The notes under the pieces are model-generated. The model did not search any database. It saw only the letters and a list, made by a program, of their open reading frames with translations, and was not told the DNA's origin. The position numbers were made by a program, and so were the translations under genes. DNA of 64,000 nt from Nocardioides houyundeii (GTDB taxonomy: Bacteria > Actinomycetota > Actinomycetes > Propionibacteriales > Nocardioidaceae): the NCBI RefSeq assembly GCF_002865585.1, contig NZ_CP025581.1, positions 3,224,001 to 3,288,000 on the forward strand, given 5' to 3'. Shown here piece after piece: positions 37,484 through 52,365 of the stretch. How positions within the stretch are numbered: the first letter of the stretch is position 1; the number at the start of each line of letters is the position of its first letter.

Positions 37484-39006
37484 ATGCCACCAGTCCGTCC
37501 GGTAACCACCCTGCAGAGCCCGACGCTGCTGCCCCTGGTGCTGCTCGTCCTCTTCAGCGTGCTGGGCGCCGGCTGGACGGCGTTCCTGGTCGGCGGCGCC
37601 CAGGGCCCTCGCACTGCGGGGACGCCGGAGGCGCTCCTGGTCCCGCGGGAGCCGGTCAAGGGCCCGGCGAGCGTCTCCAAGGCCCGGAAGCCGGCAGCGC
37701 CCGGCCCTCGCGGGGTGGTCCGTCCCGCGATCGGCGTCACCAGCACCGGGATCCCCTCCGAGGCGCTGGCCGCCTATCAACGGGCCGCGGCGGTGCTCGA
37801 CGTCGCCGACCCCGCGTGCCACCTGCCCTGGACCCTGCTCGCCGCGATCGGCCGCGTGGAGTCCGACCACGGGCGCTACGGCGGGGGCGCCCTGGACGCC
37901 GGCGGTCGGGCCGTGCCCGCGATCTACGGCGTCCCGTTGGACGGCAGCCGGAGCACGGCACGCATCGCCGACACCGACGGCGGCACGATCGACACCGACA
38001 CCACCTTCGACCGCGCCGTCGGCCCCATGCAGTTCATCCCCACGACCTGGTCGATGGTGGGAGTGGACGGCGACGGCGACGGCCGCCGCGACCCCAGGAC
38101 CTTGACGACGCAGCCCTGGCTGCGGGGGTCCACCTCTGCGCCGGTGATGAGTCGCTGACCGACGACTCCGGCCGACGGGCGGTGCTGTACCGCTACAACC
38201 CCAGCGACGAGTACGTCGACGTGGTGCTCGCGGTGATGGCGGCCTACGTCGAGCAGCAGTTCCTGCCCCCGGCCTCCGGGGACGACCCGCGGGGCACGCT
38301 GCTGGCCGACGGTCCGCTGAGCACCGGGACCGCCCCGCGCCCCGGCCGCAGGCCGGACGCCCAGCTGGGGCTCGCGGCGGACGCCGACCGGCGCCCCGGG
38401 CGCCAGGCCACCGCGCAGCTGGTCCTCGAGCTGTCTCCCCAGTCCACCGGGCCCACCCCCAGACCGACGTGGACCCCGAGCGGCGAGCCCAGCCTGACGC
38501 CCAGCCTGACGCCCACCCCGAAGCCGACCCGGACGCCGACGCAGACGCCGACACCGACAGTGACGCCGCCTGTGGCCGCCTCGGGAGAGCCCGCGGGCCA
38601 GGCCGCAGGCGAGCCCGGCCAGGCGACCGGCGCTCCCACGGGGACACCCTCCCCCACCGGCACCCCCAGCCCCACCGGCACCGGCACTGGCACCAGCACC
38701 GCGCCGACGCCCAGCGACAGCCCGACCACCAGCGCGCCGCCGACTGCGGAGACACCCACGCTGCCGCCGCTCCCCGCCACGCTGGCCGACACGCTGGCCG
38801 GGACGCTCCTCACCGACGCCGAGGTCCGCACCCTGTGCGGTGCCGAGGACGCCGGCGCCGAGGAGGCTGAGCTGCTGCTCGCCTGCGCACAGGCTCTCGA
38901 CCTGTGCCTGGCCGAGGGCATCGGGGCCGCGGAGACCCAGCGGCTCGTCGCCTGCGTGACGGACCGGCTGGGCCTTCCGGCGTCAGGGGCACCCGACGCC
39001 GGTTGA
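37484..39006 (+). pseudogene. lytic murein transglycosylase with an apparent one-base deletion
   Basis: A membrane-anchored or secreted peptidoglycan lytic transglycosylase. ATG at 37484 after GGGAGG; hydrophobic segment at residues ~15-38; catalytic Glu in AIGRVESDHGRYGG and the GPMQFIPTTW motif. At 38092-38095 (a C4 run) the frame slips: the first frame stops at 38158 after 224 aa, while the continuation (QDLDDAALAAGVHLCAGDE... RYNPSDEYVD) is open in the next frame to 39006. One extra C restores a single protein of ~508 aa, including a Thr-Pro repeat linker and a C-terminal tail. The downstream frame keeps full coding character, so a sequencing error is likelier than decay. Confidence 0.85.
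38490..38570 (+). repeat. Thr/Pro-coding low-complexity repeat
   Basis: Imperfect 6- and 12-bp repeats (ACGCCGAC..., CTGACGCCCAGC...) code for a PTPT/TPSLTP linker in the transglycosylase. A second Thr/Gly/Pro stretch (PTGTPSPTGT) follows near 38640-38700. Wall-spanning linkers look like this. Confidence 0.6.
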
Positions 39007-41698: not shown

Positions 41699-42654
41699 GA
41701 GTGCTGCTTCCTCACTGGTGCTTCGATCAGGATCGGTGCTTCCATCAGGTCTGCGGCGCCTTCGGCGAGCATCTCGCTCCCCAGGCGGGCGCCCACGCCT
41801 CCTGCGTCTTCAGGGGGTCCGGTGCTGCTCATCCGCACGGCCACCGCCCCGTCATGGGACAGTGCGACGGCGCGGATCCAGAGCTCGTCCGCGTCGTCGC
41901 CCTCGACGACCTCGGCGAGCGCGCCGAGCGGCGCGCTGCAGCCGGCCTCGAGGGTCGCCAGCACGGCGCGCTCGGCGGTCACCGCGGCCCTGGTGCGGGG
42001 GTCGTCGAGCTGGCCGAGTGCGGCGAGCAGGTCGGTGTCGTCCGCGCGGCACTCGATGGCCAGGGCGCCCTGCCCGGGAGCGGGCAGCATCTGCAGCGGG
42101 TCGAGCACCTCGGTGGCCTCGTCCAGCCTGCCCAGTCGCGCCAGGCCGGCTCGGGCCAGCACCACGGCGTCGACCTCCCCGGAGGTCACCTTGGCGATCC
42201 GGGTGCCCACGTTGCCACGGATCCCCACGATCTCCACGCCCAGGCCCAGGGCGGCCAGCTGTGCGGCGCGCCGGGGCGATCCGGTGCCGATGACGCTGCC
42301 CGTGGGGAGCTCCCCCAGGGTCAGTCCGTCGCGGGCGACCACCACGTCACGCGGGTCCTCACGCACCGGTACGGCGACCAGGGCGATGCCCTCGGCCGGC
42401 GTGGTGGGGAGGTCCTTGAGCGAGTGCACGGCCATGTCCACCCGGCCGTCCAGCAGGGCGTCGCGCAGCGCGCTGACGAAGACGCCGGTGCCGCCCATCT
42501 GGGCCAGCGGCGACCGGTTGACGTCGCCCTCGGTGGTGACCTCGACCAGCTCGACCTCACGGCCCAGCCGGGACCGGACCATCTCGGCGACCATCCCGGA
42601 CTGGGTGGTGGCCAGGGCGGAGGCGCGGGTCCCCAGACGCACGGTGCGGCTCAC
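41695..42654 (-). CDS. hemC: hydroxymethylbilane synthase (porphobilinogen deaminase)
   Basis: Polymerises four porphobilinogens (319 aa). The dipyrromethane cofactor Cys is in LEAGCSAPLGA (~residue 246); MSRTVRLGTRASALATTQS and the conserved VHSLKDLPT and GTGSPRRAAQL segments are all present. Overlaps hemA and cobA/hemD by 4 nt each. Confidence 0.97.
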   Translation of the reverse strand: MSRTVRLGTRASALATTQSGMVAEMVRSRLGREVELVEVTTEGDVNRSPLAQMGGTGVFVSALRDALLDGRVDMAVHSLKDLPTTPAEGIALVAVPVREDPRDVVVARDGLTLGELPTGSVIGTGSPRRAAQLAALGLGVEIVGIRGNVGTRIAKVTSGEVDAVVLARAGLARLGRLDEATEVLDPLQMLPAPGQGALAIECRADDTDLLAALGQLDDPRTRAAVTAERAVLATLEAGCSAPLGALAEVVEGDDADELWIRAVALSHDGAVAVRMSSTGPPEDAGGVGARLGSEMLAEGAADLMEAPILIEAPVRKQHS

Positions 42655-43985
42655 GACACCTCACCCCCAGCCGGCTCGGTGGAGAGGTCGGAGGCGGGCA
42701 CGCCGACCCGGGTGACGGCGTCGACGGACTCGGGGTCGAGGGCGAAGAGCTCGGCCAGGGCGGTGGCGTAGGAGACCGCGCCGGTCTCGTTGGCCAGCTC
42801 CTTGACCCGCACGGTCGGCTGGTGCAGCAGCTTCTCCGCGACCCGGTGCACGGTGCGCCGCACCTCGGCACGGATCCCCGGGTCGAGGTCGGGCAGCCGG
42901 GAGCCGAGGCGCTCCATCTCCGACTCCACGACGCCGGTCGCCATGGTGCGCAGGGCGACCACGGTGGGGGTGACACTGGCCGCGTGACGAGCCGAGACGA
43001 ACGCGCTGATCTCCTGGGTGACGATCCGCCGGACGTCCGCGACGTCGCGGATCGCGTCGGAGTCGTCGAGCATCTCGGCCAGCTGGGCCAGCCCGGTGAG
43101 CTCGACGCCCGGGAGCGCGACGACGTCGGGGTCGACGTCGTGCGGCAGCGCCAGGTCGATGATGGTGAGCCGGTCGGTGCGGGCCCCGCGGGCCGCCGCC
43201 AGCATCGGGGCGGTGACCAGGATGCCGGTGGCTCCGGTGCAGGTGATGAGCACGTCGGCGTCCGCCAGGGCGAGGTCCAGCGAGGCCAGCGGCACGGCCT
43301 CGGCGCCGTGCTCGGCGGCCAGCCGCTCGGCGTTCTCCAGGGATCGGTTGGCCACGACCACCCGTCCCGCCCCCATCCGGGTGACCGTGGCGGTGGCCAG
43401 GCCAGCCATGGAACCGGCTCCGACGACGACCACCGAGGCGCCCGCGACGCCCCCGTGGGGCTCGGTGGTGCGGTGCAGCGCCGCGGTGACCAGCGAGGGC
43501 GCGGCCGAGTCGATGCCGGTCTCGGCGTGCGAGCGTTTGCCGACCCGCAGGGCCTGCTGGAAGAGCACGTTGAGAGCGGGGCCGACGGTGCCCATCTCCT
43601 GCCCCAGCCTCAGGGCCTCCCGGGCCTGACCGAGGATCTGGCCCTCGCCCACGACCATCGAGTCCAGCCCCGCGGCGACGTGGAACAGGTGCGAGACCGC
43701 GCCGTCGTCGTAGTGCACGTACAGGTGCGGCACCAGGGCGTCGGTGGACGCTCCGGCACGGTCCACCAGCAGCCGCGAGACGTCCTCGATGCTGCCGTGG
43801 AACCGGTCCACGTCGGCGTAGACCTCCAGGCGGTTGCAGGTGGAGATGACCGTCGCCTCGACGACGTGGTCGCAGCCCGCCACGTCGGCGATGAGCTTGG
43901 CCACGCCGTCGGAGTCGAGCGCGAGGCGCTCGAGCAGGGCCACCGGGGCCGACTTGTGGGAGATCCCCACGACGAGGACGCTCAT
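42651..43985 (-). CDS. hemA: glutamyl-tRNA reductase
   Basis: NADPH-dependent reduction of glutamyl-tRNA to glutamate-1-semialdehyde, the entry step of C5-pathway haem synthesis (444 aa). The catalytic Cys lies in VISTCNRLEVYADV (~residue 50), GISHKSAPVALLERL opens the protein, and the NADPH site GAGSMAGLATATV is near residue 190. The ATG at 43985 overlaps the rex stop in ATGA, coupling it to the redox regulator. Confidence 0.97.
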   Translation of the reverse strand: MSVLVVGISHKSAPVALLERLALDSDGVAKLIADVAGCDHVVEATVISTCNRLEVYADVDRFHGSIEDVSRLLVDRAGASTDALVPHLYVHYDDGAVSHLFHVAAGLDSMVVGEGQILGQAREALRLGQEMGTVGPALNVLFQQALRVGKRSHAETGIDSAAPSLVTAALHRTTEPHGGVAGASVVVVGAGSMAGLATATVTRMGAGRVVVANRSLENAERLAAEHGAEAVPLASLDLALADADVLITCTGATGILVTAPMLAAARGARTDRLTIIDLALPHDVDPDVVALPGVELTGLAQLAEMLDDSDAIRDVADVRRIVTQEISAFVSARHAASVTPTVVALRTMATGVVESEMERLGSRLPDLDPGIRAEVRRTVHRVAEKLLHQPTVRVKELANETGAVSYATALAELFALDPESVDAVTRVGVPASDLSTEPAGGEVS

Positions 43986-44725
43986 GAGGAACTCCCTTCC
44001 GCTACCAGCTCGCCGGGCAGCTCGCCGGGTAGCCCGTCAGCCACCCCGGCAGGCAGCTCTGCGCCGACTGGCGGCTGCGACTTGCGCTGTTCATGGTAGG
44101 CGAGGATCTGCAGCTCGATCGAGAGGTCGACCTTGCGCACGTCCACCCCCTCGGGCACCGAGAGCACGCTCGGCGCGAAGTTCAGGATGCTGGTGACGCC
44201 GGCTGCGACCATCCGGTCGGCGACGTCCTGGGCGGCGTGGGCCGGCGTCGCGATGACCCCGATCGCGACGCCGTTGTCGCGCACGATCCGCTCCAGGTCG
44301 TCGAAGGGACGGACCACGACACCGGCGACGGTCTCGGAGTGCCGCTGTGGGTCGGCGTCCAGCAGCGCCACGACTCGGAAGCCGCGACTGCGGAAGCCGG
44401 AGTAGTTGGCGAGGGCATGGCCCAGGTTGCCGATGCCGACGATGACGACCGGCCAGTCCTGGGTCACGCCGATCTCGCGGGCGATCTGGTAGCGCAAGTA
44501 GTCCACGTCGTAGCCCACGCCGCGGGTGCCGTAGCTGCCCAGGTGGGAGAGGTCCTTGCGCAGCTTGGCGCTGTTCACGCCCGCCGCGGCTGCTAGCTGC
44601 TCGCTGGAGCAGGTGGCCGTTCCGGACTCCGAGAGACTCGTGAGGGCTCGGAGGTAGATCGGAAGTCGGGCCACCGTGGCCTCGGGAATGTCCCGGGCGC
44701 TCTCGGCAGACGTCCGTGCGCTCAC
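43982..44725 (-). CDS. rex: redox-sensing transcriptional repressor Rex
   Basis: Dimeric repressor that senses NADH/NAD+ (247 aa). N-terminal winged helix: IPEATVARLPIYLRAL, AGVNSAKLRKDLSHLGSYGTRG (first part is the recognition region). C-terminal Rossmann domain: PVVIVGIGNLGHALANY. NADH binding releases it from DNA. The GTG at 44725 gives the usual N-terminus; longer frames have no family match. First gene of rex-hemACDB; its own promoter carries a Rex-like site and the nuo operon has a strong one. A ~25-residue Gly/Glu/Pro tail at the C-terminus is poorly conserved. Confidence 0.96.
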   Translation of the reverse strand: MSARTSAESARDIPEATVARLPIYLRALTSLSESGTATCSSEQLAAAAGVNSAKLRKDLSHLGSYGTRGVGYDVDYLRYQIAREIGVTQDWPVVIVGIGNLGHALANYSGFRSRGFRVVALLDADPQRHSETVAGVVVRPFDDLERIVRDNGVAIGVIATPAHAAQDVADRMVAAGVTSILNFAPSVLSVPEGVDVRKVDLSIELQILAYHEQRKSQPPVGAELPAGVADGLPGELPGELVAEGSSS

Positions 44726-44793
44726 TGGCTCTTCTTTCCAGCCCACAGATCGGCCCCGGTTGATCGAGGCCTCCCAATCGGTCGGCAAATGCC

Positions 44794-44822
44794 ACCTTAG
44801 GAGTTTGTGAACGCGAGAACAA
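44794..44822 (-). promoter_or_regulatory. rex-hem operon promoter
   Basis: On the minus strand TTGTTC (-35, 44817-44822) and TAAGGT (-10, 44794-44799) are exactly 17 bp apart, ~68 nt before the rex GTG. The Rex-like palindrome covers the -35 and spacer. Confidence 0.6.
44805..44822 (-). promoter_or_regulatory. Rex operator-like site in the rex promoter
   Basis: TTGTGAA-CGCG-AGAACAA on the plus strand: one perfect half-site of TTGTGAA-N4-TTCACAA, the other matching at 4 of 7 bases (ACAA end). Overlap with the promoter implies weak autorepression, as known for Streptomyces rex-hemACD. Confidence 0.6.
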
Positions 44823-44861
44823 AATCCCTCGCAGCGTCTTGCTACCACAGGTGAGATTCGA

Positions 44862-46795: not shown

Positions 46796-46801
46796 TACTG
46801 T
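46796..46801 (+). promoter_or_regulatory. -10 box for leaderless HAD gene
   Basis: TACTGT, 7 nt before the GTG at 46809. It overlaps an earlier in-frame GTG at 46800, which argues for the later start. Confidence 0.45.
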
Positions 46802-46808
46802 GAGACGC

Positions 46809-47705
46809 GTGACGTCTCCGGAGAAGCACCGCCGTCAGCCGGCCCGCCCCGCCGACCTGCGCCGCCGGTCCGCCCTGGCCGGGGAGGCCGCCGCCGCCTC
46901 CGCCGAGGTGGAGACGGCGCTGAGCACGCCGGCCGACCCCACCAGCGCCGCCTTCTTCGACGTCGACAACACCGTGATGCAGGGCGCCAGCATCTTCCAC
47001 CTGGCGCGCGGGCTGTACCGACGCCAGTTCTTCACCACCCGGGACATCGCCGACGCGGTGTACAAGCAGGCCTACTTCCGGATCCGGGGCGTGGAGGATC
47101 CCGAGCACATCGCTCAGACCCGCAGCTCGGCCCTGAGCTTCATCGCCGGGCACACCGTGGCCGAGCTCGAGGAGCTGGGCGAGGAGATCTTCGACGAGGC
47201 GATGGCGCACCGGATCTGGCCCGGCACCCGCGCCCTGGCCCAGATGCACCTGGACCAGGGCCAGCGGGTCTGGCTGGTGACCGCCGCCCCCATCGAGATC
47301 GCCTCGATCATCGCCCGGCGCCTGGGCCTGACCGGCGCGATGGGCACCGTCGCCGAGCACGTCGACGGCGTCTACACCGGCCAGCTGGTGGGCGACCTGC
47401 TGCACGGACCCGCCAAGGCCGAGGCGATCAAGTCCCTCGCGGCCCGGGAGGGACTCGACCTCTCGCACTGCTCGGCGTACTCCGACTCCTACAACGACCT
47501 GCCCATGCTCGGCCTGGTCGGCGACCCGGTCGCCATCAACCCGGACCCCCAGCTGCGCAGCCACGCCCGGCAGCACGGCTGGCGGGTCCGCGACTACCGC
47601 ACCGGGCGCAAGGCCGCCCGCATCGGCGTGCTCTCGGGGGCCGTCGCCGGCGCCCTCGCCGGCGGGGTCGCGGCCGGGGTCTCGGCCCGCCGGCGTCACC
47701 ACTGA
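46809..47705 (+). CDS. HAD-IB family hydrolase (SerB-like)
   Basis: 298-aa phosphatase of the HAD subfamily IB. The nucleophile motif [11 protein letters not shown] is at ~residue 55; motif II TAAPIEI, motif III Lys in [11 protein letters not shown], motif [15 protein letters not shown]. The C-terminus ends in a Gly/Ala-rich helix and RRRHH. Homologues sit beside bldN in Streptomyces; the substrate (phosphoserine-like or lipid phosphate) is unknown. I use the GTG at 46809 because of the -10 box 7 nt upstream; GTG 46800 is the alternative. Confidence 0.87.
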
Positions 47706-47790: not shown

Positions 47791-48591
47791 GTGTCCCGAG
47801 ACAACAGGTACGACGTGGCGAGTGGCCTCCATGCGCTGCGCCTGGCCGTGCTCGCGTGCCGGCCTCCGGTGCCCCACGTGGCAGCCGCTGGCGTGGGCGG
47901 TCCCTGGCCGCTGCTCTCCGAGGCCCTCGTCCCCACCGGTGACAGCAGTCCCGTCGGCCCCGCAGGCCCTGGTGGCGCTGGTGGCCCCGGGTACGGCGAC
48001 TCCTCGCTCGCCACCTCCTCCGCAGAGTCCGAGGCGGAGCGGACCAGGCTGATCGCCCTGGTCGAGCTGGCCCGTGGCGGCGACAAGGAGGCGTTCGGCC
48101 TGCTCTTCGACCACTACCACCTACGCGTGTACCGCTTCCTGCACAGCCGCACCTCCTCCACCTCGCTGGCCGAGGACCTCACCTCGGAGACCTTCTTCCG
48201 GGCCCTGCGGTCGATGAACGACTTCCGGTGGCAGGGACGCGACTTCGGTGCCTGGCTGATGACCATCGCGCGCAACCTGACCACCGACCACTACCGCGCC
48301 GGCCGGACCCGCCTCGAGGTGGCGACCGAGGACATGGGGGTCCACGACGACGCGACCGAGGGGCCGGAGCGCGAGGTGCTCGACCGGCTCACCAACGTGG
48401 CGCTCCTGGGCGCCCTTCGCGACCTCCCCGACGAGCAGCGGGACTGCCTGGTGATGCGCTTCCTCCAGGGGATGAGCATCGCCGAGACCGCGGACGTGCT
48501 CGAGCGGTCCGCCGGCGCCGTGAAGCAGCTGCAGCTGCGGGCGATCCGCAACCTCGCCAAGGCACTCCCCCCGGAGGCGCGGCAATGTTGA
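47791..48591 (+). CDS. bldN: BldN-type ECF sigma factor with N-terminal pro-region
   Basis: 266 aa. Residues ~1-80 are an N-terminal extension (YDVASGLHALRLAVLAC...), as in Streptomyces BldN, which is made as a proprotein. Region 2 (EAFGLLFDHYHLRVYRFL; SLAEDLTSETFFRALRSMND; GRDFGAWLMTIARNLTTDHYR) and region 4 (MRFLQGMSIAETADVLERSA; AVKQLQLRAIRNLAKALP) closely resemble BldN. In Streptomyces BldN drives aerial-hypha genes; its job here is unknown. The GTG at 47791 follows GGGGAGG by 10 nt. The next gene looks like its anti-sigma factor. Confidence 0.85.
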   Translation: MSRDNRYDVASGLHALRLAVLACRPPVPHVAAAGVGGPWPLLSEALVPTGDSSPVGPAGPGGAGGPGYGDSSLATSSAESEAERTRLIALVELARGGDKEAFGLLFDHYHLRVYRFLHSRTSSTSLAEDLTSETFFRALRSMNDFRWQGRDFGAWLMTIARNLTTDHYRAGRTRLEVATEDMGVHDDATEGPEREVLDRLTNVALLGALRDLPDEQRDCLVMRFLQGMSIAETADVLERSAGAVKQLQLRAIRNLAKALPPEARQC

Positions 48592-48604
48592 GGCGACGGA
48601 CGTG

Positions 48605-48633
48605 CATAACCCCGGCCTCGGCCCAGCCGTTGT
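48605..48633 (+). promoter_or_regulatory. putative sigma-BldN promoter of the rsbN-like gene
   Basis: CATAAC (48605-48610), 17 bp, CGTTGT (48628-48633). I recall sigma-BldN promoters as CGTAAC / CGTTG(A/T)-like with 16-17 bp spacing; the -35 differs at one base. It lies in the 106-nt gap between the sigma gene and rsbN, leaving a ~58-nt leader. Streptomyces rsbN is a direct BldN target. Confidence 0.55.
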
Positions 48634-48697
48634 TCCCGGTGACGACCCTTCCCGACTCGGGTCTGGACGACCCTTCGGACCACCTAGGACTAGAGCG

Positions 48698-50149
48698 ATG
48701 AGAGCGGTATTCAGGGCGGGCAGGGCCGCCGAGCGGTTCCAGTCGCTCGTGGAGTCCGGCCACGCCCAGGCCCCTGCCCAGAGCCCTGCCCAGCCCCCTG
48801 CCCAGACCGAGTCCTCCGGCTCCCACGCCGACCAGGACCGGCTGCTGGCGGTCGTCGGACAGCTGCGCGCCGTCCAGCTCCCCGATCCTCGCGCCGAGTT
48901 CGTCACCAGCCTCCGCGAGCGACTGATGGCCGAGGCCGACACCGTCCTGCTGCCGGCCCCGGCGCCGACCGCCGAGCAGCGCCCGACCCTGACCGTGGTG
49001 ACACGGCCCCGTACCACCCGGGACCGCCGGGTGGCGGCGATCCTCACGGTCGCCGCGGCACTCAGCGCCACCGGCAGCCTCGCTCTCTCCGCGCAGGCCG
49101 CCCTGCCGGGCGACTCGCTCTACCCGGTCAAGCGGGTCATGGAGTCCGCGCAGGCCGGGCTGGTCCTGGGCGAGCAGGACAAGGGCGAGCTGCTGCTGGC
49201 CAAGGCGGAGCTGCGACTCGACGAGGTGGAGGACCTGCTGGCCCGCGACAGCTGGGAGAGCCGTCAGGCCACCGCGAGCGCGCTGCAGTCGTTCTCCGAC
49301 CAGTCCGACGAAGCCGCCACCCTGCTGCTGGAGAACTACGCCTCCACCCAGCGCGAGGACGCGGTGGAGGCCCTGCTCGAGTTCACCGGTCGGAGCATGG
49401 CTCGCCTCGAGGCGCTCTCGGAGCTGGTGCCCGGCGAGGCTGCCGACGAGCTCGCGACCGCCGCCGACCAGCTGCTGCGCATCGATGCGCTCGCCCGGCA
49501 GGCCTGCCCCGGGTGTGCCGGCGAGGGGATCACCGAGTTCCCGGTCTTCCTCGCCGCCAGCGGACCCATGACCAGCAGCCTGTACGAGCCCGACGGGGTC
49601 ACCTTCGCGGCTCCCGCACCCGCCCCGCTGGTCCGCGGCAACGGTGCAGCCGGCCGGTCCGAGGGGAACGTCCGCCTCGACGCCGCCAGGAGCGGGCCCG
49701 CCACCAGCGTCCCGAGCGCGACCGCCCAGCCCAGCAGCAGCGGTGCGCCCACGAGCTCCGGCCAGCCGACCACCGGCCCCAACCCGACCTCCCAGCCCAC
49801 CGCGACCGGCTCCCCGTCACGGCCGGCCGCGCCCACCGAGAGCAGCTCCAGCGCCCCCAGCAAGACCCAGGCCCCAGGCCCGACCGTGCCGGCCACCCCG
49901 ACACCCACGACCCTCGTCGACGACGTCACCACGATCCTGGTCGGCGACCCACCGACGAGCTCCGGAGCCCCGGAGTCGAGCGGCGGCCTGGTCGGCACCA
50001 TCGGCGAGGTCCTGGAGACCGCCGCCACCGGGCTGCTCGGCGAGAAGGTGGGCGGCAGCCTGGGCGCCGCGGTGGACCAGCTGGGAGAGGCGGTCGGGAC
50101 GATCCTCGGCAGCCTGGGGTCCAGCCCGTCCGGCAGCCAGCGGCCGTGA
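48698..50149 (+). CDS. rsbN: RsbN-like anti-sigma factor, DUF5667-type membrane protein
   Basis: 483 aa. The N-terminal ~105 residues are cytoplasmic with LLAVVGQLRAVQLPDPRAEF, the likely sigma-binding part. A membrane segment (RRVAAILTVAAALSATGSLAL, ~residues 109-129) is followed by ALPGDSLYPVKRVMESAQ, the hallmark of RsbN/DUF5667 proteins, a helical domain, and a long Ser/Thr/Pro linker with a Gly-rich end. Streptomyces RsbN, encoded just after bldN, inhibits BldN. The ATG at 48698 has AGGA 9 nt upstream; a longer frame from 48602 would cross the promoter. Confidence 0.8.
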   Translation: MRAVFRAGRAAERFQSLVESGHAQAPAQSPAQPPAQTESSGSHADQDRLLAVVGQLRAVQLPDPRAEFVTSLRERLMAEADTVLLPAPAPTAEQRPTLTVVTRPRTTRDRRVAAILTVAAALSATGSLALSAQAALPGDSLYPVKRVMESAQAGLVLGEQDKGELLLAKAELRLDEVEDLLARDSWESRQATASALQSFSDQSDEAATLLLENYASTQREDAVEALLEFTGRSMARLEALSELVPGEAADELATAADQLLRIDALARQACPGCAGEGITEFPVFLAASGPMTSSLYEPDGVTFAAPAPAPLVRGNGAAGRSEGNVRLDAARSGPATSVPSATAQPSSSGAPTSSGQPTTGPNPTSQPTATGSPSRPAAPTESSSSAPSKTQAPGPTVPATPTPTTLVDDVTTILVGDPPTSSGAPESSGGLVGTIGEVLETAATGLLGEKVGGSLGAAVDQLGEAVGTILGSLGSSPSGSQRP

Positions 50150-50200: not shown

Positions 50201-51379
50201 TCAGCCGAAGACGGAGCTGCGCTCGCGCAGCAGTTTGAACAGGGTCTGCTGGATGGTCTCGCGGACCTGGTCGGTCACCTCGAACACCAGCATCGGGTCC
50301 TCGGCCTCGAGCTCGCCGAAGGTGTCGGTGCGGATCGGCTCGCCGAACTCCATCAGCCACTTCGACGGCAGCGGAACCAGCCCGAGGGGGCCGAGCAGCG
50401 GGAAGAACGGCGTGATCGGGAGATAGGGCAGGTTGAGCAGCCGGGCCAGGGTCGTCAGGTTGCCGACGATCGGATAGATCTCCTCGGCACCCACCACCGA
50501 CAGCGGCACGATGGGCACGCCCGTGCGCAGTGCCGCGGAGACGAACCCCCCGCGGCCGAAGCGCTGCAGCTTGTAGCGCTCGGAGAAGGGCTTGCCGATC
50601 CCCTTGAACCCCTCGGGCCACACTCCGACCAGCTCGCCGCCGTTGAGCATCCGCTCCGCGTCGGCCTGACAGGCCAGGGTGGCCCCCATCCGACGAGCCA
50701 GACCGGCGACGACGGGCAGTCGAAAGACCAGGTCGGCGCCCAGCGGACGGAGGTTGCGGCCGGCGTGGTCGTGCACGGCGACCATGGTCATCAGGCCGTC
50801 CACCGGGATGGTGCCGGAGTGGTTGGACACCACCAGCGCCCCGCCCTCGGCGGGAATGTTCTCGATCCCACGGACCTCGATCCGGAACCACTTCTCGGCC
50901 AGCGGCCGGACCATCGCCAGGAAGAGCCGCTCGGTGAGCTCGCGGTCGAAGCCGAAGTCGTCGACCAGGTACTCGCCCTCGAGGCGTCGGCGCAGGAAGG
51001 CCAGGAGCTCGGCCAGGCGACGCTCCCAGTCCGGCCCGAACACCTCTCGGGCGCCGGACTCGATGGCCGCCAGCCAGTCCGCCGCCGGGATGCCGTCCAG
51101 CGGTTCGCGGTCCTTGGTGGTGGCGCCGGCTCGGGGGGTGCCGGGAGTGGGCCCAGCAGTCGGCCCGTCAGTGGGCCCGTCAGTGGGCCCAGCAGTGGGC
51201 CCGTCAGCCGGCCCGGCGGTGGATGCCTCGGCCGGTTCGGCGGCGGCCCGCGGTGCCCTCGGTGCCCTCGGCTTGGCGCCCTTGGCCAGGCTGCGCGCGG
51301 CCGCGGAGGGCTTGTCGCGCCCCGTCCCCCGGCCGGGCCGTCCGCCCGTGCCGATGGGGATGATCTCCGCGTCGCTCAC
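50201..51379 (-). CDS. lysophospholipid acyltransferase family protein (PlsC-like)
   Basis: 392 aa. A low-complexity N-terminal region (~95 residues, with GPTDGPTDGPTAGPT repeats) precedes a PlsC-type domain: VSNHSGTIPVDGLMTM (motif I; His and Asp are 7 apart rather than the classical HX4D), GVWPEGFKGIGKP (motif III) and VPIVPLSVVG (motif IV). Homologous in position to M. tuberculosis Rv0502. Likely acts on phospholipid or another acyl acceptor at the membrane; substrate unknown. Overlaps the epimerase gene by 4 nt. Confidence 0.85.
   Translation of the reverse strand: MSDAEIIPIGTGGRPGRGTGRDKPSAAARSLAKGAKPRAPRAPRAAAEPAEASTAGPADGPTAGPTDGPTDGPTAGPTPGTPRAGATTKDREPLDGIPAADWLAAIESGAREVFGPDWERRLAELLAFLRRRLEGEYLVDDFGFDRELTERLFLAMVRPLAEKWFRIEVRGIENIPAEGGALVVSNHSGTIPVDGLMTMVAVHDHAGRNLRPLGADLVFRLPVVAGLARRMGATLACQADAERMLNGGELVGVWPEGFKGIGKPFSERYKLQRFGRGGFVSAALRTGVPIVPLSVVGAEEIYPIVGNLTTLARLLNLPYLPITPFFPLLGPLGLVPLPSKWLMEFGEPIRTDTFGELEAEDPMLVFEVTDQVRETIQQTLFKLLRERSSVFG
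51145..51225 (-). repeat. 12-bp repeats coding GPT(D/A) in the acyltransferase
   Basis: Imperfect tandem 12-mers of the form GTGGGCCC(G/A)(T/G)CA code for repeated Gly-Pro-Thr-Asp/Ala in the acyltransferase N-terminus. Frame-preserving; copy number may vary among strains. Confidence 0.6.
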
Positions 51380-52365
51380 GCCATCCCTCCTACGGGTGCC
51401 GGACCTGGGCTGGTCCCCAACCCGAGGCTGCGTCCGAAGTCGGCGAAGGCCTCGCCGGTCGTGTACGTCGGGTAGAACCCCAGCATGTCGCGCATCCGGG
51501 TGGTGTCAACACCACGTCCGTAGGTGAGCAGGGAGAGCTGCTCGGGGGAGAACTCGGCTCGCAGCCGCGACCGGAGCACCGAGCCGACCGGGGCCACGGC
51601 GAACCCCGGCACCGGCAGCGGCAGCTTGCCGAGCCGTCGGATGGCCTGGGAGAGCATCAGCACACCGTCTCCGGCGATGTTGAAAGTGCCCTCGACGTCG
51701 TTGACGACCGAGTGGCGCAGGACGGCGTTCAGGTCCTGCTCGTGCAGGAACTGCAGCCGCGGGTCGTAGCCGAGCACCATCGGGATGGTGGGCAGCCGGA
51801 AGAACGCCGACATCGGCGACACCACGTGGGGGCCCATGACGTTGGCGCACCGCAGGGTGGTCACCCGGACGTCGGGCCGACGACGCGCGAAGCCGCGCAC
51901 GTAGCCCTCGATCTCGTGCACGTCGCGGGAGTAGCCGGCCCGGGGGAGCTTCTTGGGGCCCATGTCCTCGGTGAACATCGCCGGGTCCCGGCTGCTCGCG
52001 CCGTAGACCGTGGTGGAGGACTTGACCACCAGGTGCTTCACGCTCGCCGCGCGCTGGCAGGCCGCCAGCAGCTGCATCGAGCCGATGACGTTGATCTCCT
52101 TCATCGCGTTGCGTCCACCGGAGCCGCCGGGGGTCGCGATCACGCTCATGTGGACGACGGTGTCGACGTCCTCGCGAGCGATGACCTTGGCGATGACCGG
52201 GTTGCGGATGTCGGCACGCACGAAGGAGACGTTGCCGAGGTCGCCGCGGGGCGGCACCACGTCAACGCCGATGACGCGATCGATGGAGGGGTCGGCGGCG
52301 GCAAACCGCGCGAAGCGGCGGCCGATGTCCCGGGAGATCCCGGTGACCAGCACGACCCGCCCCAC
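51376..52365 (-). CDS. NAD-dependent epimerase/dehydratase family protein (extended SDR)
   Basis: 329 aa with an N-terminal nucleotide-binding site VLVTGISRDIGRRFA and DVDTVVHMSV. The usual catalytic Y-x3-K is replaced by Y-S-R-D-V (in LPRAGYSRDVHE), so classical SDR chemistry is doubtful. Positional equivalent of Rv0501 (annotated GalE2). It forms an operon with the acyltransferase downstream (4-nt overlap), suggesting a joint function in lipid or envelope synthesis; inference only. Confidence 0.85.
   Translation of the reverse strand: MGRVVLVTGISRDIGRRFARFAAADPSIDRVIGVDVVPPRGDLGNVSFVRADIRNPVIAKVIAREDVDTVVHMSVIATPGGSGGRNAMKEINVIGSMQLLAACQRAASVKHLVVKSSTTVYGASSRDPAMFTEDMGPKKLPRAGYSRDVHEIEGYVRGFARRRPDVRVTTLRCANVMGPHVVSPMSAFFRLPTIPMVLGYDPRLQFLHEQDLNAVLRHSVVNDVEGTFNIAGDGVLMLSQAIRRLGKLPLPVPGFAVAPVGSVLRSRLRAEFSPEQLSLLTYGRGVDTTRMRDMLGFYPTYTTGEAFADFGRSLGLGTSPGPAPVGGMA

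Follow-up and report, generated by a model that had tools for sequence, protein, structure and literature searches.

The sigma factor gene starting at 47791 and the anti-sigma factor gene behind it probably form an ECF switch that is controlled at the membrane and feeds back negatively on itself, orthologous to the σBldN-RsbN pair of Streptomyces. The window, a stretch of 64,000 nucleotides from Nocardioides houyundeii (72% GC), belongs to a one-contig genome of 3.84 Mb; the Nocardioides-like lineage guessed at in the initial annotation was correct. The pair, its promoter box and its neighbours are located as follows.

42651..43985, reverse strand, hemA-like syntenic neighbour (named by eye)
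43982..44848, reverse strand, rex-like syntenic neighbour (named by eye)
46800..47705, forward strand, HAD-hydrolase-like syntenic neighbour (named by eye)
47791..48591, forward strand, BldN-type ECF sigma factor (match to 6dxo_A, TIGR02952 as best family at a score below its cut-off, synteny)
48605..48631, forward strand, predicted σBldN-type promoter CATAAC-N17-CGTT before rsbN (conserved in relatives)
48698..50149, forward strand, RsbN-type membrane anti-sigma factor of 483 residues (DUF5667, profile match to 6dxo_D, predicted model)
50201..51379, reverse strand, acyltransferase-like syntenic neighbour (named by eye)
51376..52365, reverse strand, NAD-epimerase-like syntenic neighbour (named by eye)

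We used tblastn to locate window proteins on named loci, the best 80 of 564 confirmed ones, the queries being HemA, Rex, an AMP ligase, the HAD hydrolase, the sigma factor, RsbN, the acyltransferase, the epimerase and a histone-deacetylase-like protein (names given by eye). On these best 80 of 564 loci a shared gene order extends from Nocardioides, Kribbella and Actinopolymorpha to Kitasatospora and Streptomyces, and it recurs save where a contig ends or a gene is missing: the AMP ligase had no tblastn match in the Streptomyces-group loci, the window's RsbN had none in 7 of the 80, and in the three Actinomadura loci the HAD match sits behind the sigma gene. The window pair thus has the position and the neighbours of bldN, which points to the Nocardioides orthologue of σBldN-RsbN.

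The sigma protein has 266 residues when read from GTG 47791 to the stop ending at 48591, a possible alternative start (TTG 47764) lying upstream. Its top PDB match is 6dxo_A (E 1.1e-44), a chain of what we take to be the RsbN-σBldN complex. The best family is TIGR02952, the BldN family of NCBIfam, with 155.5 bits against a curated cut-off of 206.45, and because of this shortfall we use the term BldN-type positional orthologue and do not count the protein as a certified member of the family. The initial annotation had seen here a BldN/RsbN pair whose sigma factor carries the pro-region of BldN. A putative pro-region is indeed present, as an N-terminal extension of about 85 residues whose motif ASGLHALRLAV resembles ASGLATLRATV of Streptomyces (common form ASGLxxLRxxV), and the pairing is upheld by this motif, the neighbours shared out to Streptomyces and the RsbN profile match described below, at a family score under the cut-off. 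The motif is absent from the BldN-type sigma ORFs of two Kribbella loci (L347, L350). Of 296 genomes sampled from the class, 118 have a match to the sigma protein at E 1e-40 or better, and these come from 42 of 114 genera. The gene is present in 57 of 59 same-genus genomes, our own counted, and missing in G023 and in G016, the assembly of the latter being 87% complete. In the part of its text available, a 2013 survey limits convincing bldN orthologues to genera of complex morphology (PMC4255298); within the literature searched, mostly free of subscription papers, it was also the only source to link Nocardioides with BldN, or with an ECF sigma factor and sporulation genes.

For the anti-sigma gene, ATG 48698 is the most likely start; the first GTG of the ORF (48602) would overlap the promoter box. 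DUF5667 is recognised in the protein with an E value of 1.3e-12. As a single query the protein gave no match to the RsbN chain of 6dxo; a profile built from it and seven relatives, none of them from Streptomyces, matched 6dxo_D (E 0.0012), which is labelled BldN in its file, yet a chain of 6dxo has the RsbN sequence. The layout comprises three predicted cytoplasmic helices, a membrane-like helix (residues 107-123), DUF5667, a CPGC motif (270-273) and a tail rich in P, S and T. In the predicted model (mean pLDDT 58.9), the three N-terminal helices have low to modest confidence and helix 107-123 low confidence; the model is confident only from about 161 to 280, being helical from about 161 to 270, and a fold search with it returned nothing at E 0.001. 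Sequence and model thus support the cytoplasmic three-helix sigma-binding domain of RsbN, a class III anti-sigma factor, and the RsbN layout proposed earlier for this gene agrees with the domain, the profile match and the predicted helices.

C270 and C273 are the only cysteines of the window RsbN and directly follow the helical region. Start sites of RsbN were picked mechanically in the relatives, and 5 of the 56 Nocardioidaceae picks lack the RsbN motif, some being in wrong frames. Among the motif-bearing picks, CxxC is found in 49 of 51 from Nocardioidaceae, as well as in all four Kribbella loci, and is absent from 8 of 9 from the Streptomyces-group loci and Sporichthya. Our guess is that these cysteines might sense a redox or metal signal.

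Counting from the opening base of the sigma gene's stop codon, the predicted promoter of rsbN begins 16 bases on. C(G/A)TAAC-N17-CGTT stands behind the sigma gene in all 57 same-genus genomes that have the gene. A box was also present in 13 of 13 loci fetched from the sister family (spacer of 16 in seven and 17 in six), in all 7 loci from family f22, presumably Streptomyces, and in 78 of the 79 scorable loci among the best 80 of 564 named loci (spacer of 17 in 75 and 16 in 3), where L356 could not be scored and L363 lacks the box. Base-shuffled stretches contained a box in only 13 of 14,000 cases, the shuffling preserving base composition but not dinucleotides and its stretches being 300 bases long against 420 for the real ones. 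The conservation of the rsbN box is not due to chance. Because the sequence of the spacer and the flanks vary, the two hexamers constitute the conserved part. In our own genome, the search for CRTAAC-N16-17-CGTTG suggested in the initial annotation returned 2 sites in 3.84 Mb, against 0 for the reversed pattern. The CATAAC-17-CGTTGT element noticed in the gap is thus a nearly universal feature of this position in relatives, and the comparison makes a strong case, at the level of sequence, that the feedback loop of Streptomyces has been kept, as had been proposed. As judged from its upstream sequence, rsbN would have a BldN-type promoter of its own; in the available part of the 2013 survey, the RsbN promoter of S. 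venezuelae is described as dependent on BldN (PMC4255298). In all three sampled genomes of family f14 (G105:C29, G129:C59, G146:C86), the rsbN box is followed some 1.4 kb further on by a second box whose spacer ends similarly (AACTAGTCGTT); the same genomes hold two BldN-type matches.

The regulon was searched in 14 chosen same-genus genomes, most of them consisting of one or few contigs and the others being close sigma relatives. The 14 genomes contain a clear excess of boxes, with 29 sites against 1 reversed control for the N16-TCGTT form and 88 against 7 for N16-CGTT. All 117 sites were taken as loci and the ORFs downstream were clustered; the sites of L180-L182, from another family, do not enter these counts, and clusters made up of wrong-frame ORFs were disregarded. 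Four targets recur. The box precedes rsbN in 14 of 14 genomes (13 by search, plus G027 with CATAAC), a lipid-transport ABC ATPase in 13, a secreted SLT_2 lytic transglycosylase in 12, and an RNA adjacent to guaA in 13 (11 by search, G055 and G043 by covariance model). Pfam and NCBIfam names rest on one or two representatives per target: two were tested for the transglycosylase, and one for the ATPase, which is closest to MlaF yet below the cut-off of that model. One box of G027 precedes an MlaE permease. Smaller clusters comprise two secreted families with 6 sites each, one member of each being without a Pfam match, a CsoR-type repressor (4 sites) and another secreted family (4 sites). In these 14 genomes the spacer is always 17 at rsbN and always 16 at the ATPase, a difference that could set the threshold of the feedback at the reset gene. 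Family f4 has a recurring box with the same spacer each time (L180 near 1223 in G077, and in G064 and G066); in L180 it is followed by what looks by eye like a lipoprotein ORF.

These recurrent targets offer a first answer, drawn from sequence, as to what the pair may do without aerial development. Since they consist of envelope functions and a structured RNA, the pair most likely governs a programme of stationary phase or of envelope remodelling. It might still serve a cryptic developmental programme (rod-coccus transition, fragmentation or occasional mycelium) of which the envelope targets would be outputs; orthology to a developmental pair of Streptomyces speaks for this, as does the description of Nocardioides as mycelial and sporulating in the accessible part of the 2013 review (PMC4255298). 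However, no chaplin-like cluster was seen by eye among the recurrent targets of the 14 same-genus genomes, the chaplin search of our own genome being uninformative since none of 14 control genomes matched, and we regard this alternative as unlikely.

The RNA near guaA folds into three hairpins, and in nearly all copies the first loop and the last carry CUCCCUCC. Our own copy (G000:C1:2858367-2858487(-), with its box at 2858496-2858521(-)) folds with a z-score of -3.05 relative to shuffles. Both-sided changes that keep the pair were found at 17 of 22 predicted pairs across 29 copies, counts that lean towards structure because the alignment was fitted to the model. In the sample of 296 genomes of the class, the covariance model matches 15 of 15 same-genus genomes and 3 of 10 other family members, and the box precedes the RNA in all 14 sigma-bearing same-genus genomes; it is also visible in front of the G384 copy (L270). 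G044 has two tandem copies (L140, 1146-1270 and 2292-2416, reverse strand), each with a CGTAAC box. Six weak matches outside the family (G265, G270, G274, G334, G371, G382) and L278 were rejected: no box was found upstream of them, and by eye they are other hairpins, terminators and tRNA neighbours.

No Rfam family was reached at its cut-off by our own RNA copy. Like 6C/B11 RNA (RF01066), the Nocardioides RNA has hairpins with C-rich loops; it differs in its three hairpins with CUCCCUCC loops, and its score of 24 bits in our own copy, against a gathering score of 47, led us to reject this assignment. Among 16 other RNA loci there was no 6C match at E 0.1. The alphaproteobacterial ar14 (RF02344) has a similar hairpin plan with CCUCC loops but comes from another phylum; with at most 36.8 bits against a gathering score of 58.8 it was rejected too, and its likeness is probably convergent. 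The RNA is probably a new sRNA, and in the literature searched, mostly without subscription papers, looking for a small RNA associated with guaA or with BldN turned up nothing on this RNA. The C-rich loops of B11 pair with ribosome-binding sites, according to the part of the source available (PMC10470900). By analogy with this mycobacterial RNA, and from its loops, the Nocardioides RNA would be expected to pair with G-rich ribosome-binding sites.

The only exact boxes in our own genome are those at rsbN and at the RNA. A relaxed pattern gave 7 sites against 4 controls, hence no excess, and by eye the five extra sites have no recognisable target downstream; for these reasons we limit the claim for this genome to rsbN and the sRNA. 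An ATPase orthologue was not found at E 1e-60, and the transglycosylase is represented in the window by the following feature.

37484..39006, forward strand, apparent lytic transglycosylase orthologue with an interrupted frame and no box upstream (orthology and interruption judged by eye)

The interruption is possibly a sequencing error. G028 likewise has the sigma gene, no ATPase and a single box match. From the boxes, the ATPase and the transglycosylase, it appears that the circuit of our species is kept while much of the regulon of its relatives is gone or unrecognisable; the recognisable regulon looks pared down to rsbN and the small RNA. The missing ATPase, the interrupted transglycosylase frame and the lack of a box excess would also fit a pair that is a decaying relic in this species, but the sigma gene is intact, as are rsbN and the sRNA, each with its box, which makes decay quite improbable.

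Within the family, box counts track the sigma gene. Twenty sigma-bearing genomes, our own excluded, hold 151 boxes against 12 controls, whereas four sigma-less genomes hold 3 against 5; our own has 1 against 0 in the same count. Targets retained by sigma-less relatives have lost their boxes: G184 keeps the RNA and lacks the box in front of it, and the g11 genomes G196, G319 and G369 keep the ATPase (81% identity) with no box within 1.5 kb upstream. The losses of the sigma gene within the family amount to few independent events. Outside the family the relation is less clean. Box excess occurs in genomes with no sigma match at E 1e-40 (G114, 12 against 3; G290, 9 against 1; G256, 8 against 2), sigma-bearing genomes may lack it (G107, 2 against 2; G131, 3 against 35), and the f22 genome G274 has the ATPase without a box. 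That another ECF sigma factor mainly serves the boxes, the BldN-type gene being incidental, could draw on these excesses without a close sigma match (as in G114 and G290) and on the 11 matches at E 0.001 in our own genome, which are other ECF-like genes, but is very improbable given the box that directly follows the sigma gene in each of the 57 same-genus genomes that have it, the tracking of box numbers within the family and the boxless targets of sigma-less relatives.

The orthologous switch that we favour would work as follows. The cytoplasmic helices of RsbN would hold the sigma factor until a signal that acts on DUF5667, the extracytoplasmic domain, releases it; once free, the sigma factor would transcribe from CGTAAC-N16/17-CGTT promoters, including that of rsbN, and transcription of rsbN would reset the switch. 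The binding, the signal and the transcription are what we infer; genome comparison documents the two genes with their surroundings, the rsbN box as a conserved element and, within the family, boxes that go along with the sigma gene. Gene order, neighbours, the box behind the sigma gene, the N-terminal motif, the RsbN layout and its cytoplasmic domain are all as in σBldN-RsbN of Streptomyces. There, the key σBldN targets are bldM, chaplins and rodlins, according to the part of the source available (PMC4125116). In contrast, the boxes of the Nocardioides relatives precede envelope genes and an sRNA, and RsbN of Nocardioidaceae and Kribbella, unlike most picks from the Streptomyces group, mostly has an extracytoplasmic CxxC.

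The sigma/anti-sigma system itself is of a known kind, and what is new is the regulon together with the RNA. A syntenic pair with its feedback promoter extends across Nocardioides, and its relatives provide a concrete, testable regulon without recognised sporulation output, a structured RNA included, for which strains that have lost the sigma gene in nature are ready controls. In these relatives, cell-envelope genes and a small RNA seem to be driven by the switch, suggesting that it has uses besides spore-making. Tentatively, and with more doubt than confidence, σBldN-RsbN could be an ancestral actinomycete switch of envelope state, not a sporulation device. If so, the Nocardioidaceae switch would couple three outputs, namely the lipid-transport ATPase, an enzyme that lyses the wall and a translation-muting small RNA with C-rich loops; RsbN of Nocardioidaceae may use its CxxC to sense the thiol or metal state on the outer side of the membrane; and in Streptomyces this feedback-controlled switch would have recruited the chaplin/bldM regulon at a later stage.
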